Origin: a virus
Virus record (IMG/VR): IMGVR_UViG_3300018080_000237
Span: 1-51,112 of that record
Strand: one strand, 5' to 3'
Length of the DNA: 51,112 nt
Shown: positions 7,841 through 48,221 of the stretch, in pieces
Numbering within the stretch: position 1 is the stretch's first letter
How the letters are laid out: every line of letters starts with the position of its first letter
Notes under the pieces: generated by a model
Told to the model about the DNA's origin: nothing
The model's input: the letters and a program-made list of their open reading frames with translations, nothing else
Databases searched by the model: none
Made by a program: the position numbers and the translations under genes

Positions 7841-10800
7841 CTAACATTTTGAAAAACCACAATCTTTGCATTTTAAACATCCTTCTTGAAATATTAAACC
7901 CTTATATGCTCCGCAACTTGGACAGTTTTCGGTAGAACTTTCTCCGTCTTTAATGTATTTTTTTAAAGTACGAGCAATAGCTTTTGCAAACGAAACAATA
8001 GTTCCTTCTGCTTTATTCAATTGCTCATATATATATTTTATATCTACTCCATGGCGCAAACAAGTTGAAATCATCCTAGTTAATGCTTCCTGTTCATCTT
8101 TTTCAAATAAATCTCCAATATCATAAAATTCAAAACCGCCTACTTCTAATGAATATAAACCGCTTTTTATTTTCGTCAATACCCCTTTTTCAAATTTTGA
8201 AGAAAGTTTAATTTTCTTTTTCTTAAAGGCAAATGCTTCATAAGGGTCATCTTCTAAAATTCCAACAATTACTGTCCATTCTTTTCCAATTGCTGTTAAA
8301 TGATGAATTTCACAAGGTAATCGTTTTGGCCTTTTTGAAGCTGAACGTTTAATTATTCTGCCATTATTTTCTTCTTCTTCTTCTTCTTTTCCTTCTTTAT
8401 TTTTTTCAGATAATACTGACGACATAGTTCCAGTTCTATAAGTAGTCCCACCCTTTACAGTCCCCGTTTTATATAATTTTAAATAAACATTTTTAAATTC
8501 TTCATACGGAAAATCATTTGGAATATTTATCGTTTTTGACATTGCAGAATCTATATAACGAGACAAAACTGCCATTGTATCTATATGTTCATCAATTGTT
8601 AAATTGCTGATATTTTTAGCCCATTCAGATTTTTCGTCCCATTCACCTTTTTCTTTCAAATAACTTACAGCATAATCTTCTACTAATGTTTCTTTTAATA
8701 ATCCACGATTTTTATCTATTTTGTATGTTACATTATTAAAAACACATTTTAATAAATTTTCATCTCCCTCTTTCATCCATTCCCATTTAATTTTTTCATC
8801 ATCTAATTTTGCATATTTTAAGTTTTTCCAATCAATATTTTTTGGTAATAATAAACCATCAGGCGGATAAGGAATTATTGCAGTTCTAATATATTCATAT
8901 AAAAATATTGGTTCTAGACCGCTGCTTATACCTTGTGCTAATATTGATGTATTACCAGTTGGCTGTATAGAAAGCAAATGAGAATTTCTTATGCCATATT
9001 TTTTAATTAATTTTATAGTTTCTTCTTCTAAATTTTTTATAAAATTACTTTGTAAATATTTATCTCTATCGAACAATGGGAAAGGCCCTTTTTCTTTTGC
9101 TAATCTAGCTGACGAACTATATATCTCATTCGTAAGAAAACTCATAAGCTCTTTTGTTAATTTTAAAGCTTTTTTGCTTCCATATGCAGTTTTCATCATT
9201 AATAAAGCTGAACCATAACCCATAATACCTATTCCCACTCGCCTTTTATCTCGTAAATTATCTTTTTGTGATTTCAATGGAACATATGTTATATCATTCA
9301 CGTTATCCATAAATCTAACTATAGTAGGTATAAATTTCCTAAGATTTTCGTAATCCCAATTGTTTCCTTTTACAAACTGTGTTAAATTAATAGAGCCTAG
9401 CAAACAGACACCCCCAATTGGAAGAAGCTGCTCTCCACAAGGATTTGTTGCACTAATAAACTCTATATAATATAAATTATTTAATCTATTGATAGTATCA
9501 GCAAATAAAATTCCTGGTTCATTGCGATTATATGTTGATTTCATTATAATATCCCAAAGTTCATTCGCATCTTCAAATGTTTTATAAACAACTGTTTTCT
9601 TACCTGATTTTTTCCACTTTTTTAGATTTCCATCCCAATTTTTATCATAATATTTTTTATCATCATCAAAATCTGGAAATTCTAAATTCCATGGTTTATT
9701 ATTTTTAACAGCATCCATAAATTCATCAGTCACAAGAACACTCATATTAAATTTTGTTAATCGACCAGAAGTTAATTTTGCTGTTATAAACTCTTCAATA
9801 TCAGGATGCCAAATGCTCATAGTTACCATTTGTGCTCCTTTACGTATTTTAGATTTTGATTTTTTATGTTGCGATTTTCTACCACTTCCCGCAGTAATAA
9901 CATCAGATTGAGTATCCCACATATCCAACATTCTAACAGAACCTGGAGTTTCATTCGCAATTCCAGAAACAAATCCGCCTCTTGGTCTCATAACATCAGC
10001 ACAAAAACCATATCCACCTTCACTTTTTAATATTAAAGCTTGTTTTCTTAATGTTGCCAAAATTCCTTCCATAGAATCTTGGTGTTTTCCTTCAAAGCCG
10101 TCAACAAAACAGTTGTGAACAATAATATTGTTTATTATATAACTCTGGTCTTTTTCAACAGATATATTATAAACATATCCCTTATAATCTATTTCTTCTT
10201 TAGAAAAAGATTCAACAAGATGTAATTTTTCTTTTTTTGTAGAATTATCAATTATTGTTTTGACACCATTATATTGTTTTTCTCTTAGTGCTTCATTTAT
10301 TCTATTGTCCTTATATTCTTTTTTAGAATTAAAAATAAATTTTTTTGAAAATTTAGACGATAAAGCTATACACGGCGCATCTTTATATTTTTTATTAGAA
10401 GCAACAACATATCTTTTTCTACACGGAATCTTTATCATATTAAATAATGCCTGTAAATCATTTATCAAACTCTCGTTTTGCATTGCTATTATAGAACTTC
10501 CTTTTTTATCAATAAAACCATCTGCATCAAAAACTCCCAATAAAAAACTAAATTTAATATCTTCAGAAGATTCCCAGATAAATTCTGGCACTTTTTTTCT
10601 AGAATAGCCTTTTCCACAAATTTTTTCTAAAAACTTTGCTAAAACAACATTGCTTTTTCTTAAATAAATACATTCTTGATTTTTTGAATCATTTATATTA
10701 ATATCTATATCAAAAATTTTTTCAATTTTTTTCTTTAAAAATAATAATTGTGAATATTCTTTTTTATTAAAAGCAATATTAAATCCGTCTGTATCTTTTG

Positions 10801-11533
10801 CTGTAGAAAAAACACTTCCATCCCCAATGTATCTTCCTAAAAAATAGGCAAAATCTTTATCTAAATTAATTTTTCTTTTTATTTTTTTGCTACATCTGGT
10901 CATAATTGCTCCATTACCTCCTATACAATTTGTAGATGTTGAAATATAATTATCATCAACTTGATAACCATAATTTGAAAAATATTCAGCCAAATCAATT
11001 GTTTTATTATTATTAGTTTGACTCATTAATAAAACCAATTTTTTATTATTTTCAGATTTTTCCCATTTATCATCACCTTGATAAAAAGGATGTTCTTTGG
11101 TTGAATAAATATCATCTGTTAAATAAGATGATTTATATACATCTAATTTTCCTTCATAATATCTTTTTGTTGTTGCATTAACTTTTTGCCATCTTCCCTT
11201 ATGCGTTAATACATAATCTCCTTGTTTTACATTTTTAATAGCAACGTACCCTTTCTTGGTTAATACGTTGGCTTCTGGGGAAAAACAATTTATTAACGTG
11301 GTGCCTTTCAAATTTGTACCAGCATTAGATAATATTCTTCCACCAGGAACAAATTTAAAACCTTCAAATATAGATGCAAATTTTTCTGCCCAAAAATCTT
11401 TATCCTCTTCTATAGAAGCTATACTTTTTGCAACTCTTAAAAACATTCCATTAATATCTTCATCCCCAAATTTATATGTGTGTTCAAAAATTTCTTTGCT
11501 GAAATCATTTAAAAATTTAGTATTTGTAATCAT
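7841..11533 (-). CDS. nrdJ: Class II (adenosylcobalamin-dependent) ribonucleotide reductase with intein
   Basis: 1230 aa, made of an 838-aa reductase interrupted by a 392-aa intein. The intein sits between LIN and CFVDGF, at the conserved first redox cysteine. Reductase marks are NPCGEQLLP (radical cysteine with conserved Asn and Glu), QPTGNTSILA, a TSCPD-type domain near residues 1080-1180, and a C-terminal zinc ribbon CPSC...CLKCKDC ending FSKC, characteristic of NrdJ. Class II enzymes work with or without oxygen and need no small subunit; none is present in the window. It makes deoxyribonucleotides for phage replication. It is the last gene of the operon that contains primase-helicase, exonuclease and RecA, and is followed by a strong terminator. 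Activity of the gene requires splicing of the intein. Confidence 0.95.
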   Translation of the reverse strand: MITNTKFLNDFSKEIFEHTYKFGDEDINGMFLRVAKSIASIEEDKDFWAEKFASIFEGFKFVPGGRILSNAGTNLKGTTLINCFSPEANVLTKKGYVAIKNVKQGDYVLTHKGRWQKVNATTKRYYEGKLDVYKSSYLTDDIYSTKEHPFYQGDDKWEKSENNKKLVLLMSQTNNNKTIDLAEYFSNYGYQVDDNYISTSTNCIGGNGAIMTRCSKKIKRKINLDKDFAYFLGRYIGDGSVFSTAKDTDGFNIAFNKKEYSQLLFLKKKIEKIFDIDININDSKNQECIYLRKSNVVLAKFLEKICGKGYSRKKVPEFIWESSEDIKFSFLLGVFDADGFIDKKGSSIIAMQNESLINDLQALFNMIKIPCRKRYVVASNKKYKDAPCIALSSKFSKKFIFNSKKEYKDNRINEALREKQYNGVKTIIDNSTKKEKLHLVESFSKEEIDYKGYVYNISVEKDQSYIINNIIVHNCFVDGFEGKHQDSMEGILATLRKQALILKSEGGYGFCADVMRPRGGFVSGIANETPGSVRMLDMWDTQSDVITAGSGRKSQHKKSKSKIRKGAQMVTMSIWHPDIEEFITAKLTSGRLTKFNMSVLVTDEFMDAVKNNKPWNLEFPDFDDDKKYYDKNWDGNLKKWKKSGKKTVVYKTFEDANELWDIIMKSTYNRNEPGILFADTINRLNNLYYIEFISATNPCGEQLLPIGGVCLLGSINLTQFVKGNNWDYENLRKFIPTIVRFMDNVNDITYVPLKSQKDNLRDKRRVGIGIMGYGSALLMMKTAYGSKKALKLTKELMSFLTNEIYSSSARLAKEKGPFPLFDRDKYLQSNFIKNLEEETIKLIKKYGIRNSHLLSIQPTGNTSILAQGISSGLEPIFLYEYIRTAIIPYPPDGLLLPKNIDWKNLKYAKLDDEKIKWEWMKEGDENLLKCVFNNVTYKIDKNRGLLKETLVEDYAVSYLKEKGEWDEKSEWAKNISNLTIDEHIDTMAVLSRYIDSAMSKTINIPNDFPYEEFKNVYLKLYKTGTVKGGTTYRTGTMSSVLSEKNKEGKEEEEEENNGRIIKRSASKRPKRLPCEIHHLTAIGKEWTVIVGILEDDPYEAFAFKKKKIKLSSKFEKGVLTKIKSGLYSLEVGGFEFYDIGDLFEKDEQEALTRMISTCLRHGVDIKYIYEQLNKAEGTIVSFAKAIARTLKKYIKDGESSTENCPSCGAYKGLIFQEGCLKCKDCGFSKC
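10112..11287 (-). other. Intein in NrdJ with LAGLIDADG homing endonuclease
   Basis: A 392-residue intein. It begins at Cys1 (C-FSPEANVLTKKGYV, codon 11285-11287) and ends IINNIIVHN (Asn codon 10112-10114), with Cys as the +1 extein residue. Block B has the expected T-x-E-H (STKEHPFYQ). Two LAGLIDADG-type motifs are visible, FLGRYIGDGS and LLGVFDADGF, indicating a complete endonuclease domain. Cys1, the terminal His-Asn and Cys+1 are all present, so splicing competence is expected. Insertion next to the catalytic LINCFV motif is typical for inteins. Confidence 0.93.
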
Positions 11534-15861: not shown

Positions 15862-17013
15862 TTATTTTTTATTAATATATTTTTCTTTATATTTTTTTTC
15901 AGATTTTTTTGTAAAAATAATCTGATTAGATTCATAAAGAAATTTTATTTTATTACTAGATAAAAAAGGAGGGTCAATCATTTCATATTTTAAACCATTA
16001 TTTTTACAAAACTTTTTAGCTGCTCTTTTTTTTTCAATAACATCTTTAGTATTTTGTAATTTAGTCGGTTTCACTTCTACCATTTTTTTGTTCTCTATAA
16101 TAAAATCTGCAAAACTGTTTTTCTCTTTTCCTTTTTCATCAATATATGTGATTTTATATTTTCTTTTTTCTGCGCTCTCCCATAAAAGATTTTTCTTTTC
16201 TATTACATTAATCATATATGATAATTCGTGCAAACTTCTAAAAAACCAATTTTTATACCATCCAGACCATCCATTCCCTGCACCTTTTGGTGGCGGTTTT
16301 CCAAACCAAAAATTTTTTCTACCAGATAAACCTTGAGATAATTTTTTTCTCCATGCAATATCTCTTTTTTTAGCTTCTTCTTCTCCATATTTTTTAAACC
16401 AAATATTATATAAAGTGCCTCTTTTATATGCTGGATTTTTCTCACCAGAAAATGCTTCAGAAAGTTTTTTTCTATATTCCTCACTTCTAGTTTTTTCTAT
16501 AAATTTTTTTCTCTTTTCGCTTTTTTTATTGCTTTCGCTTATTTTTTTTCTTGTTTCTTTAGTATGTTTTTTATTAAAAAAAGGATTATTTTTTCCCGTT
16601 TGTTTTTTTCCTAAATTTTTATTACTACAATGAATGCATATACTTTTTCTTTTTTGGGCAACATCTCTATTCCATTTATTTGTATATTTTATTTGATTCT
16701 TACATTGTGGACAATCTCTAAACCATTCTTTTTTTGTTTTATTAATATAAGCATTTTTTTTCTTTTTTTCTATAGATGCCTTAACAAAAGATTTTACAGC
16801 ATTTTGGTTTAACCATATTTTTTTAACATATTCTATTTGTTCATCAGTAAGAACTCTTTTATTATATTTTCTGGTTTTCAAAAGAGTTTCATATTTTTTA
16901 TTCAAATAAACACAGTTTTTACATAGTTTTTGGTTTCTTTCTGCTCTATTTCTGCTTTTTTTATTTGTATAAATTATTTCATTTTTACATTGAGGGCATT
17001 TTCTTTTAAACAT
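15862..17013 (-). CDS. Free-standing homing endonuclease, NUMOD3 plus PD-(D/E)XK
   Basis: 383 basic residues. The N-terminus has two zinc ribbons (CPQC...CKNC at about 6-36 and CPQC...CIHC at about 101-131). The middle has NUMOD3-type DNA-binding repeats (NPFFNKKHTKETRKKISESN; SGEKNPAYKRG; LSGRKNFWFGK). The C-terminus has a TnsA-like nuclease core: RSLHELSYM, then SFADFII and MVEVKPTK (the D and E-x-K pair), then a basic helix. This fits a homing or mobility endonuclease lodged between recA and the exonuclease gene. It carries its own TATTTATA element, unlike its neighbours, so it is probably transcribed late and independently. Confidence 0.85.
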   Translation of the reverse strand: MFKRKCPQCKNEIIYTNKKSRNRAERNQKLCKNCVYLNKKYETLLKTRKYNKRVLTDEQIEYVKKIWLNQNAVKSFVKASIEKKKKNAYINKTKKEWFRDCPQCKNQIKYTNKWNRDVAQKRKSICIHCSNKNLGKKQTGKNNPFFNKKHTKETRKKISESNKKSEKRKKFIEKTRSEEYRKKLSEAFSGEKNPAYKRGTLYNIWFKKYGEEEAKKRDIAWRKKLSQGLSGRKNFWFGKPPPKGAGNGWSGWYKNWFFRSLHELSYMINVIEKKNLLWESAEKRKYKITYIDEKGKEKNSFADFIIENKKMVEVKPTKLQNTKDVIEKKRAAKKFCKNNGLKYEMIDPPFLSSNKIKFLYESNQIIFTKKSEKKYKEKYINKK

Positions 17014-27741: not shown

Positions 27742-29031
27742 TTAAACCAAAAGCTCTTTGGTTAGAATTTTCTCAATATCGTTGAATTTTGTATAAGGTA
27801 TTCTGATTAGTTTTATATTATTCTTCTTTGCATACTCTGTTTTGATTTTGTCGTTTTGTTGAGTTTTTTTAAAATTTTGTTTTATCTTTGTGTTTGACTG
27901 ACTTCCAAAAGAAATCGGCTCATAGTGTTGTTTTCCGTCATATTCTATTAATATATTTTTTTCTTTTATATAAAAGTCAAATGGTAAACATCTTTTGTTT
28001 TTACAGTCTGAATATTTTTTTTGGTATATAAAATTAATTTTTTTTGTTTTTAAAAAACCTCGTATTATTTTTTCCCCTTTTGATTTATTGTTACAAATTG
28101 GACATCCATCTCTATTTAAATGATTCATCGGTGTTTGTTTGAATTCGCCATGTTTTTTACATATAATTATTATTTTTGTATGATTATTTTTATATTTAAT
28201 ATTAGAATAATCATATTCATCTCCATGAATTTTTTTTGCCCTTTCTATAAATTCAGATGTTGTTAGTTTAATATTTCTAGCGCATTTTTGGCATCCATTA
28301 CCGCTCAAGTGATTCACAGGAGACTGTTTAAATTTTCCATGAATTGAACATATAATTTCTACTTTTGTTCTGTTGTTATTATAATTAACATTAGAATAAT
28401 CATATTTATTTCCATGAATTTTTTTTGCTTTTTTTATAAAACCTTTAGTCGTTAATTTAAAATTTTTCGCACACTTAGGACAACCGCTTCCTTTTAAATG
28501 ATGTATGGGCATTTGTTTAAATATGCCATGTTTTTTACATATAATTTTTACTTTAGTATAATAATCTCTATAGATAATATTAAAATAGTTATATTTATTT
28601 CCATGAATTTTTTTTGCCCTTTCTATAAATTCAGATGTTGTTAATCTTACATTTCTAGCACATTTCGGACATCCACAACCTCGGAGATGCTCATTTGGTT
28701 TTTGCTGAAACTCACCATGAATAGAACATATAATTATTATTTTATTATTATAGCTCTTATATATAGATTTAGAATAATCATATTTATCTCCATGAATTTC
28801 TTTTGCTCTTTTTATAAATTCAGATGTTGTTAATCTGATATTTCTAGCACATTTTGGACATCCACTGCCATTCAAATGATTCACAGGAGATTGTTTAAAA
28901 TTTCCATGAATTGAACATATAACTTCTACTTTTATTCTATTGCCGTTATAATCAACATTGGAATAATCATATTTATTTCCATGAATTTTTTGTGCTTTTT
29001 CAATAAATTCTTCTGTTGTTAATCTTTTCAT
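27742..29031 (-). CDS. Free-standing homing endonuclease with five DUF723-like repeats and Vsr-like nuclease
   Basis: 429 aa. Five tandem units of about 63 residues each contain TTSEFIERAKKIHG, KYDYSN, ICSIHGxFKQ, NHLxGxGCPKC. Each has a C-x2-H and a C-x2-C pair that could bind zinc, the pattern of DUF723-like DNA-binding repeats. The C-terminal 130 residues are a Vsr/PD-(D/E)XK-like nuclease: KCLPFDFYI-type strand (RCLPFDFYI), ILIEYDGKQHYEP, then KTEYAKKNNIKLIRIPY. This fits a homing endonuclease with modular DNA recognition. The gene overlaps the small ribbon-helix-helix gene by an ATGA and lies between the tape measure and the repeat-protein genes. Confidence 0.87.
   Translation of the reverse strand: MKRLTTEEFIEKAQKIHGNKYDYSNVDYNGNRIKVEVICSIHGNFKQSPVNHLNGSGCPKCARNIRLTTSEFIKRAKEIHGDKYDYSKSIYKSYNNKIIIICSIHGEFQQKPNEHLRGCGCPKCARNVRLTTSEFIERAKKIHGNKYNYFNIIYRDYYTKVKIICKKHGIFKQMPIHHLKGSGCPKCAKNFKLTTKGFIKKAKKIHGNKYDYSNVNYNNNRTKVEIICSIHGKFKQSPVNHLSGNGCQKCARNIKLTTSEFIERAKKIHGDEYDYSNIKYKNNHTKIIIICKKHGEFKQTPMNHLNRDGCPICNNKSKGEKIIRGFLKTKKINFIYQKKYSDCKNKRCLPFDFYIKEKNILIEYDGKQHYEPISFGSQSNTKIKQNFKKTQQNDKIKTEYAKKNNIKLIRIPYTKFNDIEKILTKELLV
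28095..29028 (-). repeat. Five coding tandem repeats of about 190 bp
   Basis: The DNA behind the five DUF723-like units keeps high similarity between copies (for example TAATATTTCTAGCACATTT and ATTTCCATGAATTGAACATAT recur), suggesting fairly recent internal duplication. Copies 1 and 4 are especially alike in the N-N-R-x-K-V-E segment. Confidence 0.75.
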
Positions 29032-38041: not shown

Positions 38042-40327
38042 TTAATCATCCCATAAATTATTTTTAACTTTTTGAAATTTAGCATTACTTTTAAAGTTAA
38101 TGAACCCTTTTTTATTTCTAACAAATTCCGATATATAAACACCACCTTTTTCTAATTGAGAGTAAATTTTATTATGCATTTTATCAAAGGCTCTCAACGT
38201 TGTTGTACTAATACCGTCTCCGACTCTCATTTGTAAATATTTTTTCCCTTTCACAGAATCTAATTCTTTAAATGTTTCAACAACAAAAAAATAATAATCA
38301 TTTTCAGAAAAATTTATAATGCTTTCAATAACTCTACCCGCTCTTTCTCTTAATTGATTCTTAATGTTTGCCATTTTTTCTATTTTTTCTAAATCAAAAT
38401 TGCATACTTCTATAAATTCTTTTTTCTTTTGCAATTCAGGTGTCTCTTCATATTTCGAATTTTGTAATTGTGATTCAAAACCTGAGGAACTTAGATTAAA
38501 CAATGCTATCTGATTTTCAGCAACTTTTTTTCTCTTTCTTGTTTTTAAATCAATTAGATGGTCTCTCGATTTAGACCAATCATCAAAAACACCAGCCTTA
38601 ACTGCTGCTCCAAATGAAGTCTTATTAAATTTAGAAAATTTTAAACTAAAAAATTCTGCCATACTAATTGTATCTAATGTTTTTTCATTTTCTTTAAGCA
38701 ATTGCATTAATTCTTTATAAGCTATATCTCCCATACCAGTAATGCCTGAAAATCCCATTGAAATTTCTTTGTCCCCAGTCATTGTCCATTTCCATCCAGA
38801 TTTTCTTGATGGAGTTTTTATTTTAATGCCTCTAGACATTGCGGCAGCAATCGTAGAAGCAAGCCATCTTTTTTGTTCTTCCTTTTTGCTTCCTTTTGGA
38901 TAGTTTAATAAGCATGCATAAAATTCAGTAGGATAATAATGTTTAAGATATAAAGTTTGCATTGCTAAATATGTGTAACTCAAACTGTGACTACGATTGA
39001 ACGAATATCCCAAATATTTATTAAGCCAGTTTTTTATTTTATCAATTTCTCCTTTTTTATAACCATTTTTTTCTGCTCCATCTAAAAATTGATTCCAATA
39101 TTTTTGAAAATTTTTATACTTATCGCCATTTAATTCTTTCTCGGTTAATTCTTCTCCTTTGGCTTGTTTTTTAAGCAAATCTCCTGCAATATCCATATAT
39201 CTTCTTAACATATCCCCATCGCCAAGCGACATTCCCGCAATTTGATTTGCAATAAACATAATTTGTTCTTGGAAAATTAATACCCCATTGGTTCTTCCTA
39301 ATATTGGCTGTAAAGCTGGATGAATATATTCTATTTTATCTGGATTAAATTTATTTTTAATATACTCTTCATGGGCACCTATTCCCATAGGGCCTGGACG
39401 GTATAAAGCAGCAGCTGCAACTGCCTCTTCAAAATTTTCTACTTGCATACCTCTAATTAAAGCATTCATCCCAGAGCTCTCAAATTGAAATATACCATTA
39501 TTTAAACCTAACCTTAATTCGGTATATAAATTAATATCAGTTATATCAACATAATCAATTTTATCTTGTATATCTATTCCTTTTGTTTCTTTAATAAGAT
39601 TTATCGTGTCTCTAATCACATTCAAAGTATCTAATTTTAACATATCTAATTTTAATATGCCTAATTTTGATAAATCTTTACCGCTTTTATCAGCTTCTTG
39701 AAATGCAGTAACAACAGTTTTTTTTGAAGCAATTATATTAGTTGGAATATATTCCCAAGACGGGCCTGGAGTAATAACAACTCCTGCTGCATGTTGTCCT
39801 ACTCCTCGAATTTGTCCTTGTAGTTTTAATGTTTGTTGTAAAATTTCTTTATTTTCAGGATTTTTTAACCAAGATTTAACTACAGGGCTACAATTTTTAT
39901 CGTTTGGCCACTCATCAAACCACCAATTTAATCTATAATCTACTTTTAACCAATTTGGCATTTCTTCTGTAACTCTAAACACATCAGAGTCATATCCTGT
40001 TTCTTCTGGACCACGATGAGCTCTGACGACATCTTTCAAACATGCTTTTTCATTAAATGTTAAAAAAGTTGCAACAGGCAAAACTCTTTCTTTGCCATAT
40101 TTGTTAATTAAAAATTCATTTGTGATATTATCCGTATTAGATTGGTAATCTATGTCGATATCAGGGGACGAATTGTGTATTAATATGCTAAAATTCAGCA
40201 AATTATCACACTCATCTAAATCTTTACTTGATGAAAAAAATAAATTATCTTTATCAAATGATAAATCATAAACCTTTTTTCCATTATATTTTATTTTTTT
40301 TATTTGTTTTATTTTAGAAATTTTCAT
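38042..40327 (-). CDS. dnaE: DNA polymerase III alpha (DnaE-like), C-terminal half with split-intein C part
   Basis: 761 aa: 52 residues of C-intein, then a 709-aa polymerase half starting SSPDIDIDYQS. Catalytic aspartates are in PDIDIDY and in KLDMLKLDTLNVI. Other alpha-subunit motifs are YRPGPMGIGAHEEYIKNK, GVLIFQEQIM, FNRSHSLSYTYLAMQTLYLK and the helix-hairpin-helix GFSGITGMGDIAY; a C-terminal OB-like region follows. Joined to the 460 residues of the N-terminal gene it gives a polymerase of about 1169 aa, the normal DnaE length. The ATG follows the endonuclease stop directly (TAA then ATG), so it is translated with that gene. Function requires protein trans-splicing. Confidence 0.95.
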   Translation of the reverse strand: MKISKIKQIKKIKYNGKKVYDLSFDKDNLFFSSSKDLDECDNLLNFSILIHNSSPDIDIDYQSNTDNITNEFLINKYGKERVLPVATFLTFNEKACLKDVVRAHRGPEETGYDSDVFRVTEEMPNWLKVDYRLNWWFDEWPNDKNCSPVVKSWLKNPENKEILQQTLKLQGQIRGVGQHAAGVVITPGPSWEYIPTNIIASKKTVVTAFQEADKSGKDLSKLGILKLDMLKLDTLNVIRDTINLIKETKGIDIQDKIDYVDITDINLYTELRLGLNNGIFQFESSGMNALIRGMQVENFEEAVAAAALYRPGPMGIGAHEEYIKNKFNPDKIEYIHPALQPILGRTNGVLIFQEQIMFIANQIAGMSLGDGDMLRRYMDIAGDLLKKQAKGEELTEKELNGDKYKNFQKYWNQFLDGAEKNGYKKGEIDKIKNWLNKYLGYSFNRSHSLSYTYLAMQTLYLKHYYPTEFYACLLNYPKGSKKEEQKRWLASTIAAAMSRGIKIKTPSRKSGWKWTMTGDKEISMGFSGITGMGDIAYKELMQLLKENEKTLDTISMAEFFSLKFSKFNKTSFGAAVKAGVFDDWSKSRDHLIDLKTRKRKKVAENQIALFNLSSSGFESQLQNSKYEETPELQKKKEFIEVCNFDLEKIEKMANIKNQLRERAGRVIESIINFSENDYYFFVVETFKELDSVKGKKYLQMRVGDGISTTTLRAFDKMHNKIYSQLEKGGVYISEFVRNKKGFINFKSNAKFQKVKNNLWDD
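40172..40327 (-). other. Split intein, C-terminal fragment
   Basis: 52 residues at the start of the C-terminal polymerase gene. Block F is VYDLSFDKDNLFFSS and block G is NFSILIHN with Ser as +1 residue. The Asn codon is 40172-40174. All C-terminal splicing residues (His-Asn and Ser+1) are present. It matches the N-fragment at 41424-41705 in position within the polymerase. Confidence 0.93.
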
Positions 40328-41377
40328 TTATTTTATTTGATTTTTTAAAAACATTAAAATATTATCCTTATTGCTATTCCAATCAGTTTCCCAAATTTCA
40401 AAAAACATACAATTTAAAATATTGATTACTTCATTTTTTCTTTTTAAATCATCTTTCCAAACTTCTGATGCTAATTGATGTCTTATTTGATGATAATAAT
40501 CATAATTATAAATTTCAGGGTTACAATGCCAATAATCTCCCATAATTTCTATAACTATATTGTATTGTTCATTATAAAAATCAAGCATATAAAATTTACG
40601 TTTATTTATAATTAAAACCTTTTGACCAAATTTTGAATTTACATGATATGAGTTTGTGAAACCAATTTTTTCGATTTCTGAAATTATTATTTTTTCTAAA
40701 TTAGAACTTCCTTTATAAACATGATGGTTTCTTTTCTTTGCATTATCAATTTGCCATTTTTCATCTTTAAAAAAATTATCTATTCCATATAAAGTTTTCA
40801 TTGTAATAGTAACAGAAGAATAATGACAACCTCGCTCAAGAAACCAATTAACTCCATATCTCTCATTTATAGTATTTGAAATTTTATTTTTAATTTTTTT
40901 AGATTGAATTGGAGCTGTTAATCCAGTTGTTCCCAAACCTTCATTTAAACTTTTCTCAAATTTTTTTCTATATTCCTTTGTAGTGTAATACATAGATTTA
41001 TAATCTTTTTCATCAATTAAATACCCTAATTCCCAGAATTTCTTCCCAGTTCTGTTTGGATGAAGACTTATTTTTTCAATTCTATTATAATATGGATTTT
41101 TATATTCTATAAAACAATTAGTTGGTGAATATTCAACACCATTAGATTTAATATATAATCTTAAATCATCATTTCTTAAATCTAATCTTGGACGCAAATA
41201 TATATCATCAATTAAACCAATATATTTTTCTTTAAAATATAATTTTTTACCTTTTAAAAATCTATAAGAAACATATAAATCTGACTTATAAGGCCAATCC
41301 TTTTTTTCTTCTTCCGTTGCTTTTGGAAAATTAAAAATTTCTCTTAACTTTTTTTGTATTTCTTCTTTTGATTTCAT
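40328..41377 (-). CDS. Vsr-like endonuclease lodged in the broken polymerase gene
   Basis: 349 aa. The N-terminal 220 residues contain DNA-recognition-type sequence (KSLNEGLGTTGLTAPIQSKK; NTINERYGVNWFLERG). The C-terminal 130 residues are a Vsr/EDxHD-type nuclease: YMLDFYNEQYNIVIEIMGDY followed by WHCNPEIYN, then VWKDDLKRKNEVINI and FFEIWETDW. Endonuclease genes of this kind between the two halves of split-intein genes have been described as fractured genes (Dassa et al. 2009, from memory). It would cut intein-less polymerase alleles and spread the whole arrangement. A TATTTATA element is 25 nt upstream. Confidence 0.87.
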   Translation of the reverse strand: MKSKEEIQKKLREIFNFPKATEEEKKDWPYKSDLYVSYRFLKGKKLYFKEKYIGLIDDIYLRPRLDLRNDDLRLYIKSNGVEYSPTNCFIEYKNPYYNRIEKISLHPNRTGKKFWELGYLIDEKDYKSMYYTTKEYRKKFEKSLNEGLGTTGLTAPIQSKKIKNKISNTINERYGVNWFLERGCHYSSVTITMKTLYGIDNFFKDEKWQIDNAKKRNHHVYKGSSNLEKIIISEIEKIGFTNSYHVNSKFGQKVLIINKRKFYMLDFYNEQYNIVIEIMGDYWHCNPEIYNYDYYHQIRHQLASEVWKDDLKRKNEVINILNCMFFEIWETDWNSNKDNILMFLKNQIK

Positions 41378-41402
41378 AAAAAAATTTAATTTAGTCTTTA
41401 TC

Positions 41403-41410
41403 TATAAATA
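41403..41410 (-). promoter_or_regulatory. Putative TATTTATA promoter of endonuclease and polymerase C half
   Basis: CTATATTTATAGATAAAG on the coding strand in the 43-bp gap between the N half of the polymerase and the endonuclease gene. It would let the endonuclease and the C half be transcribed apart from the N half. Confidence 0.45.
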
Positions 41411-41420
41411 TAGAAAAAAA

Positions 41421-43085
41421 CTAAAAAACAAATAAAAAATCACTTTCCAATATTTCATCAACCCTAATTTCAATTCTTTCCCCTTTCCTTAAAACAGGAA
41501 CTATGTGACAACCAGTAAGTTCTATTTTCGCTCCGTCAAGTGTTTCTATCTCATAAATTTCTTCATTTTTTTTTAAGTCTCTTTCGTGAATTTGTATTAA
41601 TTTTCCTAATCCTTTTTCTGTTTGTACTGGGTCACCAATTTCAATTTCTTTGATATTTTTATAAATTCCGTTTTTTAAAAGAACATTGCAATTTTCAGTT
41701 AAACAGTTCCTTGTGGGATTAAGAAATCTCTCAAAATATAAATCAAACCTGATAGGGTCAATTTTAGTTATATCTAAACAATATGACAACAAAGAACCAC
41801 AGGCACTTCCTCTTCCAGGGCCTATCATATAGCCTTTTTGATTATAATCTCGAATTATCTCCCAATTTACGAGAAAATAATCCAGCATTTTTTTATCATC
41901 TATAACTTTAAGTTCATAATTTAACCTATCAAGATATTTTTGAGTTGTTTCATCATTTATTTCAATGATGTTATTTTCTTTATATTTATTTAATTTCTGT
42001 TTTAATTTACCAAATGCTAATTTGTAAATAATCTCTCTTGTGTCTGTTGTTTTAAAGTAATCAATTACATCTTGTGTTGGTTCATATTTAGGAAATTTTT
42101 CAACTCCTATCTCAAATTCGAAATTACATTTTTCTGCAATTTTTAATGTATTCTTTAAACAAGCATCAATAAATTCATCAGGATAATTAAATTTAAATAA
42201 TTCATTAAACATATAAAAATCACTACTACTTAAAAAATATAAATGTCGAGTATTAAATTTAAAAGAATTATCTAATTTGCTTCTATGGTTTATTGCTAAA
42301 AGCGTATCTTGTAATTTATTGTCCTCTGGATAAGCATAATGTACATCACTAGTTAAAATAGGCATTATTTTATACTTCTCTGCCATTTTTAACAGAAATG
42401 AATTATATCTTTTTTGAATTGACAACTCATTAAATTGTAATTCAATTACAAAATTTTCTCCGAATTCTTCATGAAGGCGTTTTAAATATAACTCTGCTTC
42501 CCATTCTTTATTGTCTAATAATAATTTTGCTATTTTATGTGCAACACAAGATGTTGTTATAATCAACCCTTCTTTGTGTTGTATTAGTTGTTCCGTTGTA
42601 ATTCTTGGTCTATAATAAAAACCTTCTGAAAATGATAAATATGCTAATTTATTTAAATTAACATATCCTTGCTTATTCATTGCAAGTATTATTTGATGGG
42701 AATTTCTACCTTCATCTTTTTTTGTCTTATGTTGTCCTATTTCATCGTTAATATAAGCTTCTATACCAAAAATTGGCTTTATGCCAGATTCTTTACATTT
42801 TTTAAATAATTCAAATGTACCAGATAAAGTTCCGTGGTCAGTAATTGCAAGCGCAGGTTGATTATATTCTTTCGCTAATTTCACATAATCATCAATAGAA
42901 CCTGCTCCATCCAAAATTGAGTGAAAAGAATGGGTGTGTAAATGAACCATAGGTTTGTAATTACCTTGTATTCTCTGAAAATTTGGGTCTGAATTTGTTA
43001 TTGTTTGTCCCTGGTTTTGTTGCTGAGATTTCTTTTGTTCTTCGCTTCTTAAATCTAAACTATTTAGTTGTACTTTATCAGACAT
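41421..43085 (-). CDS. dnaE: DNA polymerase III alpha (DnaE-like), N-terminal half with split-intein N part
   Basis: 554 aa: 460 residues of polymerase followed by 94 residues of N-intein. After a Gln-rich leader the PHP domain is clear (MVHLHTHSFHSILDGAGS, LAITDHGTLSG, KPIFGIEAYIN). The palm begins at GPGRGSACGSLLSYC and ends DLYFERFLNPTRN, just before the catalytic PDIDIDY that lies in the other gene. Thus the break splits the active site, and neither half can be a polymerase alone. The upstream gap (43086-43171) contains TATATTTG, close to the host-type -7, but a TTTG only 16 nt upstream. Confidence 0.95.
   Translation of the reverse strand: MSDKVQLNSLDLRSEEQKKSQQQNQGQTITNSDPNFQRIQGNYKPMVHLHTHSFHSILDGAGSIDDYVKLAKEYNQPALAITDHGTLSGTFELFKKCKESGIKPIFGIEAYINDEIGQHKTKKDEGRNSHQIILAMNKQGYVNLNKLAYLSFSEGFYYRPRITTEQLIQHKEGLIITTSCVAHKIAKLLLDNKEWEAELYLKRLHEEFGENFVIELQFNELSIQKRYNSFLLKMAEKYKIMPILTSDVHYAYPEDNKLQDTLLAINHRSKLDNSFKFNTRHLYFLSSSDFYMFNELFKFNYPDEFIDACLKNTLKIAEKCNFEFEIGVEKFPKYEPTQDVIDYFKTTDTREIIYKLAFGKLKQKLNKYKENNIIEINDETTQKYLDRLNYELKVIDDKKMLDYFLVNWEIIRDYNQKGYMIGPGRGSACGSLLSYCLDITKIDPIRFDLYFERFLNPTRNCLTENCNVLLKNGIYKNIKEIEIGDPVQTEKGLGKLIQIHERDLKKNEEIYEIETLDGAKIELTGCHIVPVLRKGERIEIRVDEILESDFLFVF
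41424..41705 (-). other. Split intein, N-terminal fragment
   Basis: 94 residues beginning with Cys1 (CLTENCNVLLKNGIYKNIKE, codon 41703-41705). Block A and block B (ELTGCHIVPV, T-x-x-H) are present, and the reading frame stops just after the block B region (ESDFLFVF), as in natural split inteins. With the 52-residue C part it makes a 146-residue mini-intein without a built-in endonuclease. Confidence 0.93.
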
Positions 43086-43171: not shown

Positions 43172-43390
43172 TTAATAATAATCACTATCATAATCTTGCT
43201 TCTGCTTTTTAATCTTTTCTCTTATCGTAAATCCTAATTCTTCCAGCTCTTTGATTTTTTTTCTGATTTTAATTCCCGATTTTTTAAAATCAGAATAGCT
43301 AAAGAATTTTTTAAATTCAGACTGACATTCATCACGAATTTGTTTAAATTTTTCCCAATCCTCTTTTAAATTATAATAATCATTAATCAT
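43172..43390 (-). CDS. Hypothetical protein, 72 aa, after portal
   Basis: A charged helical protein (FKQIRDECQSEFKKFFSYSD, KIKELEELGFTIREKIKKQK) with no recognised domain. It starts within the end of the portal gene (8-bp overlap), so it is translationally coupled to it. Genes in this place in T4-like phages often encode small head or prohead-core proteins, but here that is only positional inference. Confidence 0.65.
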   Translation of the reverse strand: MINDYYNLKEDWEKFKQIRDECQSEFKKFFSYSDFKKSGIKIRKKIKELEELGFTIREKIKKQKQDYDSDYY

Positions 43391-46300
43391 TTTTTTTATT
43401 ATTCTTATCTAAAATAGAATCAATATCTTCAAACATTTTTTTGGTTTCATTAATCACTTTTTCGCTTCCTTCAATCAACACATTCTTATCATCTTTTGTT
43501 TCAACTACTTCTCCTTCCTCAATTATCTCCGCATCTTCGATTACTATTTTTTTATTACTTAAATTGTTTGGCACACTTTCTAACGTATTATTTAAACTAT
43601 CTATTAATTTTTCGGTTTTAAGAGCAAGTTTATTGCTTTTTTCAATTAACACATTATCTTCATTTTTCTTTGCCTCTCTTTTTTTCTTAATTATTGATTC
43701 ATCTTCACCTAATAATTCAGTTAATAATTTATCGGCATTTGTATCAGATTCTTTAAGCAATTTATGTAATTTTTTTCTTTTCTCGCTTTCTGTTATAGGT
43801 GCTCCACCGCCTGCTGGTGCTCCTGCACCTGCCGCTGGTGCTGCCTCTGGTGCTCCTGCACCTGGAGCTGGTGCACCACCTGGAGGAGCCGCTCCTAAGT
43901 CTGCCGCCATTTCTCCGCCAGCACCCATTTCAGCACCACCAACTTCACCTGGCGCTTCAATTCCACCTTCTGCAGCCCCACCTAATGCACTCGCTGCACC
44001 AAACCCTTCTCCTGCTGCTGGCTCTTCTCCTGGTGGAACTTCACCTAATTCCTCTGGCGTTTGTGCTTCAAATTTTGCATCCAATTCCCTAAATAATCCA
44101 ATTTTTCTGTATGCTTCAACAGCTGAATCAATTTCTGCAAATATTTTCTTCTCAACTTTTTTCTGCTTCAAAATTAATTTAATTTCGGAATCTGAGAATC
44201 CAAGTATTTTTTGCATGGCCCATGTGTATGAAGTGGGGGATGTAGCTTCAGCACTGAAAAATTCTTTAAATACTTCTAATCTACCTTTCATTGTTTCAAG
44301 TTTCAACAATTCTTGTTGAGTAGATGGATTAGTAAATGTTAAAGTAAAATTATCTATATCATCTCTAAAACCTAAAAAATATAAATGAACATTTGCAACT
44401 CTTCTTAATTCAAGCAATACCGCCTCTTGAATAGAATTTATCGTTCTTGCAAAACGTAAATCTGCCTGAGATAATGTGCTTCCTCCTGGCATAGATTCCG
44501 CAAAATTTAAATATGTTTTAGGAACCTGTAAAGCTGCGAACAATTTATTCTGAAGGTACTCTATATCGGCTATTTCGGCAAGATTTGAATTTTTTGTAAA
44601 AACTCCACAAGAAAGAGCAAAATTATGAAAATCATGATATTTTTCATTTCCGTCAATAGTAATTGTTCCAGTATCTATTTTTTCATCTAAAAATTCGATT
44701 GATACTATTTTATGATTATAACATTCAATTTTTTCTTTAAAATCTCTAAAATTATCATAACCAAAACTCATTAACAATTTACACAAATTATTATGAGTAA
44801 AATAATCCATTTTCTTAAGATGTTTGTTTTCTTTGTTTAATTTATAAAATTTTTCCAAAAACCAAGAATTTTCAGAATTAATTACGTTTAAAATATTTTT
44901 TGAACTACATTGACCATTTTTATATAATTCTACAACAAAATTTAATAATTCATCAGAATATTTATAATGTTGCTTCTCTTTTATTTTTTTTCTGTAATTT
45001 TTATCTTTCCATAATTCTTTAGAAATTATACTTTGTTTTAATTTATATTTTGGGGTATTTTTAACTATTTTAAGCGATTTGCTTGTTTTTTTATAAAACT
45101 CTTTTTTATATTCTTCATATTCTAATAATTCCCTTATTTTTATAAATCCCTTTTCTCCATTTTTTTTACTTATATTTGCTCGTTTTTTCCTATCTTCTTC
45201 AGATAAATTATTAAAATAGTTTTTAATTCCATTAGAAATAGCTTTATTATGTTCTATTTCTTTTTCACTACTTCTATTTTTATAATAATTAATACGAGCA
45301 GCTTTTAATCTATTATTAACATTTTCTCTGAAAAAAATATCATTATCATATTTTTCTTTAAAAGCTAAATATCCTGCTTTTGACCATTTAATTATATTAT
45401 CACTATGATATTCACGGTGGTCTTTATTATTCATCCAATAAAGATTTTCTGGATTATTATTATACCTATCAAAATCGTTATGATGAATAGTTAATTTAGA
45501 ATAATTCTTATATTTTTCATTATAAACAAATTCATTTCTTTCTCCAAGCCCATCAAAATAATTATTAACAACTCTATGTGTGAATTTCCATTTATTAGAT
45601 TTATGGTCATAAATTTGTTCATAATCATTTCTTCCTTTTAAATTATCATTTTTGATTTTCTTAAATCTTTTATTAAAAGACCATAAAGATTCACCTATTT
45701 CTAATTTTTTTGCCTCTTTTTCCCCATTAAATCTTGTTGGAAATTTATGGTCAGGAGTGACTATTATTGTCTCGCCATTATCTAATGTTATTTTAACAAC
45801 ATCTGTATTTCTTCGAGTAATGCCAGCCCATGAAATTTTCCCAGGAACAATTTCTCCAGATTCTGGATTTATAGAATAAGACCAAAGTTGTTTTCCTTCT
45901 TTATATTCTTTAATTATATCTTTTAGTTCCAAACTCCTTCCATCTAATAAATCAATTTTTGTATCTAATGCCAAACAAGCTCCAGGAAGTGTTTCTATTT
46001 TAGAAGCCCTATCTCCACGAATAGGAATAAAATAATCCTCTGTAACATTCATAGGATTATATTTTTGATGCATATTTCCTGTTTGTGAATCTACAACTGG
46101 TTGTTTTTTTACTTGATTTTGTATTTTACCCATATATGTTTTAACATCAGCATCAGGTAAAGTTCCAACTTCAATATAAAAAACACGTCTTTCAGGAGCA
46201 CGTGTGTTATGTACAGGTATTCCATTTGCAATAAAATTGTGCCATTTATTATCAACTGTTATATCATAAACATCCCTTTTTTGAACTTCTTCTGTTATAA

Positions 46301-48221
46301 TAATATTTTCATATTCTGGTAATTCAAGTTGAGTTAATGTAATTATAAAAACTTCTGTCTCTTTTATTGCTCTGTTGTTTTCTTTATCAATTATATGAGA
46401 CTTTTTAATTCTATTAGTTAATTTTCCAGAATTTAAACCTATAGAACTCCAAAGTTCTTTAACATCTTCTATTAGTTTTTTATTACATAATTCAAGTGTG
46501 CAAAACCAAGTTCCTTTTCGTGTATGTCTTATACATCCATCTGCATCGCATAAACCTAAAATCAAAGCCTTTCTTATAGAAGGTTTACAATTAAAAACCC
46601 AACTTGGAATTCTTTTATTTTTAGCTCCTTTAATAAAACCTAAATCTTCAAAAATTTTGCTTGCATATTCAGAATTCACTGTATAATTCCCACAACCATG
46701 TTCGCTTCTTTTGTCTAAATCAAAATTTACTTTACCAAAAAATTTCTCTAAAAGATTAGAATAATATTCATTAATTTTTTTATTTACACCTCCTGCAAAA
46801 CAAACAGAGTTTTTTCTGATGCTTCCATCTCCCAAAAGAAATCCAAAAAGTTGTGCAAATTCTTCATTTACATATTTAGGAACATTTATCCTTTCCGAAT
46901 TGTTTTGTCCTTTATTTGATATTATTAGTTTTTCTGAATCTAAATTAAATTTTTCACAAACATTTTTTGCAATATTTATTGGGATATTTTTATTTTCTGT
47001 ATATAAAAATTGTTTTATTCTATCTTCATTGTATTTTTTAGTAGAACATTCTCTCATTAATTGCGAAATATTATCATAAGAATTATTTCTGAATATTTTT
47101 CTTTGTGTTTCGTCCAATTTCGCAAAAATTTCTTTAAAAATAGTTCTAATTTCTTTTTCTTGTATATTTATATTTTTAGTAGAAATATTTATTAATTTAT
47201 GTTTCTTAATTTTTAAATCTTGTGCATCTACATACTTAATTACACCATCTTCATTAACTAATACAGGATGCGTTTTTGTACAGATTATTTCTTTGTGTTT
47301 AGACGCTATTTTTAAAACTTCTTTTTCTCCATTATTAATATGATTAACAATATTGCCAAAACATAGTTCACCCGTATCCGTATATGATATAATTCTATCT
47401 TTTGTATTTAAATCTTTAATATATTTATAACCATTATCTGTTCGAATTCTTGTTTCGCCATCTAAACAATACCTGTAAACTAACATCGCATCCTCAGACA
47501 ATTGTAATTGTTTCCACAATTTTCTTGATGAATCGAGAATCGACCTTCCGTATGGAAGTTTACGGCTATCTTCTAATAATCTAAAATGAGCAACTTGCCA
47601 TTCTTCAAAATAATCTCCTGTAGTTTCCCATCTGAATCTAACCGAATCAATTCTTCCATCATGTCCTTCCTCTCTATGAACTTCTTCCATTGGCAATGTA
47701 AGAAAATCATAAATTCCTACATCTTTATCAATATTTAACAAAACAAAATAATCACCATATTTAACTAAATCTCTAACCCATAGTCTTAAATTAAAGTCTG
47801 CATTTAAAACATTTTTAAACAAATCATTTAATACTTCTTTGACCCTTGTGTTTTCTGAAAAAACTTCTAATATTCCTCCCCTTTCACTTCTCGTTAAACA
47901 CTCATCTCGTATGATGTTGAGCGCTGCAGCAATTTCAGGAGATGCATCCATTGCCCTAAAGTCTTGATATGCACTAATTCTGTCTGTATCGAAATATACT
48001 GTCCTAGTATATAAATCATGAGCTATTTTATGAACTTGCCAGTCTAAAAATTGTTGTTGCATATTTTCAATGCCACTACCTGGTTTTAAATCTGGCATTG
48101 TTGAATAAGGAGTTGTTCCTCTAGTTGCGCTTAATCCAGGAGTAAACGATGCATCAAAAGTTTTCCTTCTGTTTTTTTTAACAGCGTCTAAAACGCCTGC
48201 AAATATACTTTGTTCTGCCAT
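43383..48221 (-). CDS. Portal protein (gp20-like) with two inteins
   Basis: 1612 aa. Removing two inteins (421 and 463 aa) leaves a 728-aa portal. Extein marks are IAHDLYTRTVYFDTDRISAY, DASPEIAAALNIIRDECLT, LWVRDLVKYGDYFVLL, EEWQVAHFRLLED...PYGRSIL and FIPIRGDRASKIETLPGA with NLAEIADIEYLQNKLFAALQ, all typical of T4-type portals. The C-terminal 270 residues hold an Ala/Gly/Pro/Glu low-complexity stretch and then a Lys/Glu helical tail. The portal forms the dodecameric ring at the head vertex through which DNA is packed. It lies next to the terminase gene. Both inteins must splice for head assembly. Confidence 0.93.
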   Translation of the reverse strand: MAEQSIFAGVLDAVKKNRRKTFDASFTPGLSATRGTTPYSTMPDLKPGSGIENMQQQFLDWQVHKIAHDLYTRTVYFDTDRISAYQDFRAMDASPEIAAALNIIRDECLTRSERGGILEVFSENTRVKEVLNDLFKNVLNADFNLRLWVRDLVKYGDYFVLLNIDKDVGIYDFLTLPMEEVHREEGHDGRIDSVRFRWETTGDYFEEWQVAHFRLLEDSRKLPYGRSILDSSRKLWKQLQLSEDAMLVYRYCLDGETRIRTDNGYKYIKDLNTKDRIISYTDTGELCFGNIVNHINNGEKEVLKIASKHKEIICTKTHPVLVNEDGVIKYVDAQDLKIKKHKLINISTKNINIQEKEIRTIFKEIFAKLDETQRKIFRNNSYDNISQLMRECSTKKYNEDRIKQFLYTENKNIPINIAKNVCEKFNLDSEKLIISNKGQNNSERINVPKYVNEEFAQLFGFLLGDGSIRKNSVCFAGGVNKKINEYYSNLLEKFFGKVNFDLDKRSEHGCGNYTVNSEYASKIFEDLGFIKGAKNKRIPSWVFNCKPSIRKALILGLCDADGCIRHTRKGTWFCTLELCNKKLIEDVKELWSSIGLNSGKLTNRIKKSHIIDKENNRAIKETEVFIITLTQLELPEYENIIITEEVQKRDVYDITVDNKWHNFIANGIPVHNTRAPERRVFYIEVGTLPDADVKTYMGKIQNQVKKQPVVDSQTGNMHQKYNPMNVTEDYFIPIRGDRASKIETLPGACLALDTKIDLLDGRSLELKDIIKEYKEGKQLWSYSINPESGEIVPGKISWAGITRRNTDVVKITLDNGETIIVTPDHKFPTRFNGEKEAKKLEIGESLWSFNKRFKKIKNDNLKGRNDYEQIYDHKSNKWKFTHRVVNNYFDGLGERNEFVYNEKYKNYSKLTIHHNDFDRYNNNPENLYWMNNKDHREYHSDNIIKWSKAGYLAFKEKYDNDIFFRENVNNRLKAARINYYKNRSSEKEIEHNKAISNGIKNYFNNLSEEDRKKRANISKKNGEKGFIKIRELLEYEEYKKEFYKKTSKSLKIVKNTPKYKLKQSIISKELWKDKNYRKKIKEKQHYKYSDELLNFVVELYKNGQCSSKNILNVINSENSWFLEKFYKLNKENKHLKKMDYFTHNNLCKLLMSFGYDNFRDFKEKIECYNHKIVSIEFLDEKIDTGTITIDGNEKYHDFHNFALSCGVFTKNSNLAEIADIEYLQNKLFAALQVPKTYLNFAESMPGGSTLSQADLRFARTINSIQEAVLLELRRVANVHLYFLGFRDDIDNFTLTFTNPSTQQELLKLETMKGRLEVFKEFFSAEATSPTSYTWAMQKILGFSDSEIKLILKQKKVEKKIFAEIDSAVEAYRKIGLFRELDAKFEAQTPEELGEVPPGEEPAAGEGFGAASALGGAAEGGIEAPGEVGGAEMGAGGEMAADLGAAPPGGAPAPGAGAPEAAPAAGAGAPAGGGAPITESEKRKKLHKLLKESDTNADKLLTELLGEDESIIKKKREAKKNEDNVLIEKSNKLALKTEKLIDSLNNTLESVPNNLSNKKIVIEDAEIIEEGEVVETKDDKNVLIEGSEKVINETKKMFEDIDSILDKNNKKND
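43797..44060 (-). repeat. GC-rich low-complexity tract in the portal tail
   Basis: About 260 bp rich in GCT/GGT/CCT/GCA-type codons encode short Ala-Gly-Pro runs (APPGGAPAPGAGAPEAAPAA). It is the most GC-rich place in an otherwise very AT-rich window, and the opposite strand is open as an artefact. The encoded linker is probably disordered. Confidence 0.8.
44589..45977 (-). other. Portal intein 2, HNH endonuclease type
   Basis: 463 residues, from Cys1 (CLALDTKIDLLDGRSLELKD, codon 45975-45977) to NFALSCGVFTKN (Asn codon 44589-44591), with Ser as +1. Block B is IIVTPDHKF (T-x-D-H). The insert carries an HNH endonuclease: LTIHHNDFDRYNNNPENLYW, then NKDHREYH, followed by a long basic helical region. 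The penultimate residue is Lys instead of the usual His, a known but minority state. Insertion is after LPGA in the conserved ETLPGA-NLAEIADIEYL core. Confidence 0.92.
46206..47468 (-). other. Portal intein 1, LAGLIDADG type
   Basis: 421 residues, from Cys1 (CLDGETRIRTDNGYKYIKDL, codon 47466-47468) to NFIANGIPVHN (Asn codon 46206-46208), with Thr as +1. Block B is IICTKTHPVL (T-x-T-H). LAGLIDADG motifs are LFGFLLGDGSI and LILGLCDADGCI. All splicing residues are canonical. Insertion is between AMLVYRY and TRAPERRVFY in the portal. Confidence 0.94.

Follow-up and report, generated by a model that had tools for sequence, protein, structure and literature searches.

A phage dnaE gene fractured at its catalytic motif by a predicted split intein and a Vsr-like endonuclease gene

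How might a phage depend on a replicative DNA polymerase whose gene is broken in two at the catalytic motif, with another gene lodged between the halves? The question is raised by the dnaE gene, encoding the alpha subunit of DNA polymerase III (Pol III), in IMGVR_UViG_3300018080_000237, a linear IMG/VR virus record of 51,112 bases and 28% G+C that was analysed at its full length and is referred to here as the window. The window carries T4-type portal, baseplate and terminase genes (Pfam). A Bacteroidota host is likely because Flavobacterium phage immuto is among the nearest matches to the large terminase (35%) and the N domain of the primase is of a Bacteroidota type. We conclude that the window dnaE is very probably a fractured gene of the type attributed to Dassa et al. 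and discussed below, in which a split intein, together with the gene of a free-standing Vsr-like homing endonuclease, has become established within the catalytic motif.

The three genes lie in the same direction on the minus strand, in the order DnaE N half, endonuclease open reading frame (ORF), DnaE C half. A first-pass annotation of the window had described DnaE as fractured with an endonuclease between its halves, and the ORFs, lengths and coordinates proved to be exactly as it had given them. The features are as follows, IntN and IntC being the N- and C-terminal halves of the predicted intein.

41421-43085, minus strand: DnaE N half (N-extein plus IntN), 554 amino acids
41706-43085, minus strand: DnaE N-extein, 460 amino acids; PHP domain, then the beginning of the Pol III alpha palm; last residues FERFLNPTRN
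41424-41705, minus strand: IntN, 94 amino acids; Cys1 and T-G-C-H block B, Pfam Hint and Intein_splicing; stop codon at 41421-41423
41378-41420, minus strand: gap of 43 nucleotides between N-half stop and endonuclease start; promoter signal at chance level, no terminator found
40328-41377, minus strand: putative Vsr-like (EDxHD-like) endonuclease, 349 amino acids; N-terminal region and C-terminal nuclease domain (approximately residues 222-349)
38042-40327, minus strand: DnaE C half (IntC plus C-extein), 761 amino acids
40172-40327, minus strand: IntC, 52 amino acids; block F VYDLSF, ending LIHN; ATG adjoins the endonuclease stop
38042-40171, minus strand: DnaE C-extein, 709 amino acids plus stop; Ser+1, catalytic PDIDIDY, finger domain and HHH
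40172-41705, minus strand: complete inserted element (IntN, endonuclease and IntC), 1534 nucleotides, from comparison with the empty alleles L025, L026, L032 and L035

The identity of the broken gene is clear from its domains: the PHP domain, a C-family palm with the catalytic Asp pair and the fingers are all found, and PDB alignments to Pol III alpha lie between 1e-51 and 1e-58. In the N half, PHP is followed by DNA_pol3_alpha up to profile position 99 and then by Hint (2.4e-7) and Intein_splicing (1.2e-4), whilst in the C half DNA_pol3_alpha picks up at position 99 and runs through the finger domain. With a slash marking the seam, the N half reads FERFLNPTRN/C and the C half LIHN/SSPDIDIDY, so that the element falls exactly between the N and S codons of the uninterrupted gene and the joined exteins come to 1169 amino acids (460+709). 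The first extein residue of the C half corresponds to residue 398 of E. coli Pol III alpha (2hnh), and the Asp residues at C-extein positions 4 and 6 therefore match residues 401 and 403, the known catalytic Asp pair. The junction, called site 1 here, stands three residues ahead of the first of these, in agreement with the annotated break at the catalytic motif.

It had also been proposed that the two halves sit under different promoters. This found no support: promoter-like sites (36, against 36.7 in shuffled sequence) are at chance level, no minus-strand terminator was found between the three genes, and the genes are co-directional with gaps of 43 and 0 nucleotides.

All of the splicing residues expected of a class 1 intein are present, as the annotation had claimed: Cys1 in block A, T-G-C-H in block B, the block F Asp (VYDL), the terminal His-Asn and Ser+1. 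IntN and IntC belong to separate ORFs, broken at the usual endonuclease position, and carry opposite net charges (-6 and +3, respectively). Sequence matches in the PDB to IntN and IntC together include TFIIB inteins, the Hedgehog Hint domain and gp41-1. The pair can be assigned to the class 1 split inteins, with trans-splicing activity as a prediction.

A DNA pattern for His-Asn-x-x-Pro-Asp-x-Asp-x-Asp was searched across IMG/VR, with near-identical contigs collapsed. Nine further site-1 lineages emerged (L009/L105, L014/L108, L005/L027, L015/L111, L020/L115, L002/L112, L003/L030, L006/L033 and L017/L250), every one of them split at site 1; a truncated eleventh contig, L273, also has a site-1 IntN. 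Searching viral contigs with the C-half sequence by itself gave no match; the junction pattern and alignments succeeded. Two phages that seemed to bear inteins from the extents of tblastn matches, SparkleGoddess and Bacillus phage PS1, were rejected, their dnaE genes being uninterrupted. The site-1 pattern gave chance matches only in 84,980 bacterial and archaeal genomes, with no dnaE intein among them. In five of the relatives (L009, L014, L005, L015 and L002) a DnaQ-like 3'-5' exonuclease is fused to the DnaE N-terminus; unlike most relatives, the window DnaE lacks this domain, as do L020/L115, L030 and L034.

Conservation across the ten site-1 lineages is close. Cys1 is found in all ten, as are the block B T..H, the YD, the HN and Ser+1, and IntN is 94 amino acids long in nine (96 in L112). 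In each of the nine lineages with an intact endonuclease gene, its stop codon overlaps the C-half ATG or lies no more than 11 nucleotides from it, and the coupling is therefore conserved. The earlier statement that the C half is translationally chained to the endonuclease stands with a minor correction: stop and start overlap in most relatives, whereas in the window they simply abut as TAA/ATG.

These data bear directly on the idea, raised with the annotation itself, that the gene holds an ordinary contiguous intein with an internal endonuclease and owes its break to errors in sequencing or assembly. Relatives do have contiguous inteins at two other sites in DnaE (L033, L034 and L115, see below). 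Against this, the 1534-nucleotide insert is not a multiple of three, making a single reading frame impossible; a stop follows IntN residue 94, and its position recurs, together with a separate endonuclease frame, in independent metagenomes; and no IMG/VR match to the site-1 pattern has a contiguous intein. Recurrence refutes an error of this kind, which we regard as extremely improbable, and confirms at the level of sequence that the arrangement is neither chance nor an assembly slip.

The annotation had pointed to intein-less homologues as a check, and these exist. In L025, L026, L028, L029, L032, L034, L035 and L248 dnaE is uninterrupted at the site-1 codons, and the exact empty site NPTRN/SPPDIDIDF is found among the intein-less homologues; in L029, Gly replaces Ser at +1. 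Two pairs allow close comparison: L014 (occupied) and L035 (empty) have flanking DNA 85-90% identical about an insert of 1553 nucleotides, with 87-88% identity to either side of it, and in L027 (occupied) and L032 (empty) the flanks are 80-87% identical, or 82-85% immediately beside the insert. Compared with empty relatives, inserts of 1.1-1.9 kilobases (kb) sit between the same two codons. The dnaE of L035 (6004-8160) has one in-frame stop in its C-extein (RVGR-stop-IRDP), which is probably a sequencing error or the mark of a dying copy.

The uninterrupted relatives also speak to a joining of the halves at the RNA level, through an intron around the endonuclease gene. Phage homing endonucleases are often intron-encoded (PMC3943268), yet the comparison shows that the intein parts belong to the insert, not the endonuclease alone, and the intein motifs are intact; furthermore, Rfam gave no match anywhere in the window, which thus has no known intron. 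We consider RNA-level joining scarcely credible.

Is the element mobile? Occupancy of site 1 is patchy, which fits homing: a tree of 19 exteins requires at least seven changes, and in five sister pairs one member is occupied and the other empty. With shuffled occupancy labels the mode is also seven, a scatter equal to random, and gain and loss cannot be separated by change counts. Intein and endonuclease similarities at times contradict the extein tree: the IntN of L027 is 76% identical to that of L014 with exteins only 50% identical, as against 47% (IntN) and 52% (exteins) between L027 and its extein neighbour L115. Endonuclease loss is seen too. L011 matches L002 here except for a deletion of 1011 bp in the endonuclease gene, which leaves the C-terminal tail and both intein halves, whilst in L017/L250 the site-1 endonuclease has shrunk to a remnant with the split kept. 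The split thus appears to outlast its endonuclease. A homing cycle predicts this where only a precise fusion can undo the break.

The endonuclease has weak family matches to DUF7487, its nearest Pfam entry, and to PHROG 3339 (homing endonuclease). An alignment of 40 identifies D266, E277, G280, D281, Y282, W283, H284, N286 and W329 as invariant, giving a core motif of D266, E277, GDYWH-N and W329. AlphaFold models have a predicted local distance difference test score (pLDDT) of 87 for the whole protein and 96 for the C-terminal domain, and a fold search with the nuclease domain placed Vsr (1cw0; probability 0.98, E 0.025) and I-Bth0305I (3r3p; probability 0.77, template modelling score 0.62 by target, E 0.29) among its best nuclease matches. 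Toxoplasma mitoribosomal proteins also stand out among the PDB fold matches. We regard the protein as Vsr-like, as annotated, with good, though not final, support.

Selection on the element was gauged from ratios of non-synonymous to synonymous substitution (dN/dS) between L014 and L105, which are rough because synonymous sites are near saturation: 0.05 for IntN, 0.17 for IntC, 0.09 for the endonuclease and 0.06-0.10 for the exteins. Values from misframed or stop-bearing slices were left out (L014/L035 C1, L035/L026 C1 and the L014/L027 endonuclease). By this measure IntN, IntC and the endonuclease are under purifying selection.

The same evidence helps to decide between trans-splicing and a polymerase of two non-covalent subunits in which the intein halves are mere relics. 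There is a precedent for the latter in NrdA of Aeromonas phage Aeh1, an endonuclease-broken enzyme that works in pieces without splicing (discussed in PMC3653736). In dnaE, however, none of the ten lineages has lost a catalytic intein residue, IntN and IntC are under purifying selection, the seam adjoins the catalytic Asp pair and the intein halves are kept even after endonuclease loss; we think an unspliced two-subunit enzyme very unlikely. Very unlikely, too, is that the window dnaE is a decaying, non-functional copy in a phage that uses another replicase. The N half does lack the exonuclease domain of most relatives, and another polymerase may lie beyond the ends of this fragmentary contig, but L020/L115, L030 and L034, which share the lack, are otherwise intact, the catalytic motifs are conserved and the exteins are strongly constrained.

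Trans-splicing, then, remains the reading that we favour, and might proceed as follows. The N and C halves, translated separately, would associate through their oppositely charged intein halves, whereupon Cys1, the block B His, the terminal Asn and Ser+1 would perform class 1 protein trans-splicing to yield a polymerase of 1169 amino acids with its catalytic motif, including the Asp pair at C-extein positions 4 and 6, restored. Translation of the endonuclease would be coupled to that of the C half. The enzyme would cut the uninterrupted dnaE of co-infecting phages, repair then copying the 1.5-kb element in full; once the element was fixed, the endonuclease would be free to decay, whilst the split intein would have to stay because the polymerase needs it. 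Phage replication would by this scheme depend on trans-splicing. Several points weigh against so full an account. The anatomy is read directly from the sequence, whereas ligation, DNA cleavage and homing are predictions from the known behaviour of split inteins and homing endonucleases. The Foldseek E-values for the nuclease all exceed 0.001, and the endonuclease-free L011 allele is a single contig. Finally, the data do no more than suggest that the intein has moved horizontally with respect to its host gene, the conflict between trees being mostly not significant: in approximately unbiased tests the extein clades were not rejected by intein or endonuclease data in most cases (p 0.07-0.38), with one rejected (0.019).

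Site 1 is not the only place at which DnaE has been broken. Two more intein sites occur in relatives, each seen empty, contiguous or split, the contiguous and split inteins being homologous. Site 2 (FNK/SHS), close to the cyanobacterial DnaE site, is uninterrupted in the window (FNR/SHS). It is split in L112, L030 and L248, with another endonuclease bearing a GD(Y/F)FH motif, and also in L250, L267 and the distant L251 and L252; the intein is contiguous in L033, L034 and L115. Site 3 (GRG/SAAGS) is split in L017/L250, L266, L267, L272, L273 and L274 and contiguous in L033, L263, L265 and L269. This leaves several DnaE proteins in three pieces and a single one in four: against two in the window, there are three in L112 and L030 and four in L250, with L267, whose contig ends early, probably in three. 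The four pieces of L250, all seen in the single contig IMGVR_UViG_3300017917_005124 (L250/L017), are N1, a middle piece of 164 amino acids bearing intein halves at both ends, C1 and C2; L273 shows the double-ended middle piece independently. The three L250 inteins are only 24-44% identical to one another and at site 2 the charges are reversed (IntN +2, IntC -10), differences that should hinder cross-joining. It is likely, in our judgement, that repeated fracturing has struck three sites in the catalytic core of DnaE in these mostly aquatic phages, every site having a split intein and an endonuclease of its own, so that the enzyme is made whole or as two, three or four separately translated polypeptides and assembled by up to three diverged, probably non-crossing split inteins. 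If true, the four-piece L250/L017 DnaE would be, to our knowledge, the most fragmented naturally trans-spliced enzyme. The three diverged intein pairs from one natural enzyme are candidate tools for multi-segment protein assembly.

Other inteins and endonucleases were met along the way. In the window (all minus strand), the T4-type portal gene (43383-48221) has two contiguous inteins, at 46206-47468 (421 amino acids, LAGLIDADG) and 44589-45977 (463 amino acids, HNH), and NrdA, the ribonucleotide reductase large subunit (7841-11533), has a LAGLIDADG intein of about 390 amino acids. A free-standing NUMOD3 plus TnsA-like endonuclease of 383 amino acids (15862-17013) lies between 5'-3' exonuclease and UvsX-like recombinase genes, and a 429-amino-acid ORF (27742-29031), with no intron around it by Rfam, contains CapR/DUF4379/DUF723 repeats, an architecture that PMC12350094 describes as a new outgroup of homing endonucleases. 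Elsewhere, an apparent large terminase in the cultured Streptococcus phage vB_SagM-GXN1 (PQ819873; L261 2753-5714) is broken by two split inteins: the first ORF starts with an IntC and ends with an IntN and an endonuclease-like stretch, the second comprises an IntC and the terminase C-terminus, and the N-terminal piece was not found in 2.7 kb upstream. In Prevotella phage Lak-B4 (MK250023; L262 6218-9515) an SF2 helicase is fractured in its DEC-CHH motif by a split intein, its halves separated by a 413-amino-acid ORF (read with TAG=Q).

How does the window compare with known systems? In Pseudomonas jumbo phage MIJ3 a split intein interrupts PolB, whose halves are separated by an HNH endonuclease gene (PMC6892783); further split PolB inteins are found in T4-like phages and other sources, among them Aes123 and CP21 (PMC11923092, PMC12707363). 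Like dnaE here, each is a replicative phage polymerase interrupted by a split intein, but of the B family, at another insertion site and with an HNH or no reported endonuclease; moreover, the Aes123 and CP21 inteins are cysteine-less, unlike that of the window with its Cys1. These cases show that the splitting of a phage polymerase is not new in itself.

Cyanobacterial split DnaE (Synechocystis, Nostoc), inserted at Y/CFNKSHS, is likewise joined by protein trans-splicing, as is predicted for the window. In cyanobacteria, however, the halves lie far apart on a cellular chromosome with no endonuclease between them, whereas in the window the insertion is at NPTRN/SSPDIDIDY and the genes are adjacent with an endonuclease between; it is site 2 of the relatives that falls within a few residues of the cyanobacterial site. 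Trichodesmium dnaE is split and has several inteins (Liu and Yang 2003, cited in PMC5874633). The endonuclease resembles I-Bth0305I/EDxHD and Vsr enzymes in motif (D, E..GDYWH, WE) and probably in the general fold of its nuclease domain, the structural E-values being weak, but differs from known members in its N-terminal region. Aeh1 NrdA, broken by the homing endonuclease gene mobE, offers a parallel in the breakage, with the difference that it has no intein. A literature search covering few subscription papers found no phage dnaE broken this way and no natural trans-spliced enzyme of three or four pieces; as most subscription papers fell outside it, this is no proof of novelty.

The closest comparison is with the fractured genes, with split inteins and Vsr-like endonucleases, that Dassa et al. 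are said to have described in 2009 from Global Ocean Sampling data. As there, a phage or environmental gene of DNA or nucleotide metabolism carries a split intein with a free-standing Vsr/EDxHD-type endonuclease between its halves. The 2009 set reportedly consists of gp41 helicase, NrdA/NrdJ and IMPDH genes; the host gene here is Pol III alpha, which places a fractured gene in a replicative C-family phage polymerase, at the residues that perform the chemistry. Empty alleles, endonuclease loss and three fracture sites in one gene are further differences seen in the window group. Matched empty, occupied, endonuclease-less and multiply broken alleles, usually missing for fractured genes, make it possible to test how split inteins originate and what makes them difficult to lose, whether a free-standing endonuclease can move both halves of an intein together and by what means wrong joins are avoided when one protein has several split inteins. 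In every feature that sequence can test, the window dnaE matches the Dassa et al. 2009 fractured genes and appears to belong among them.

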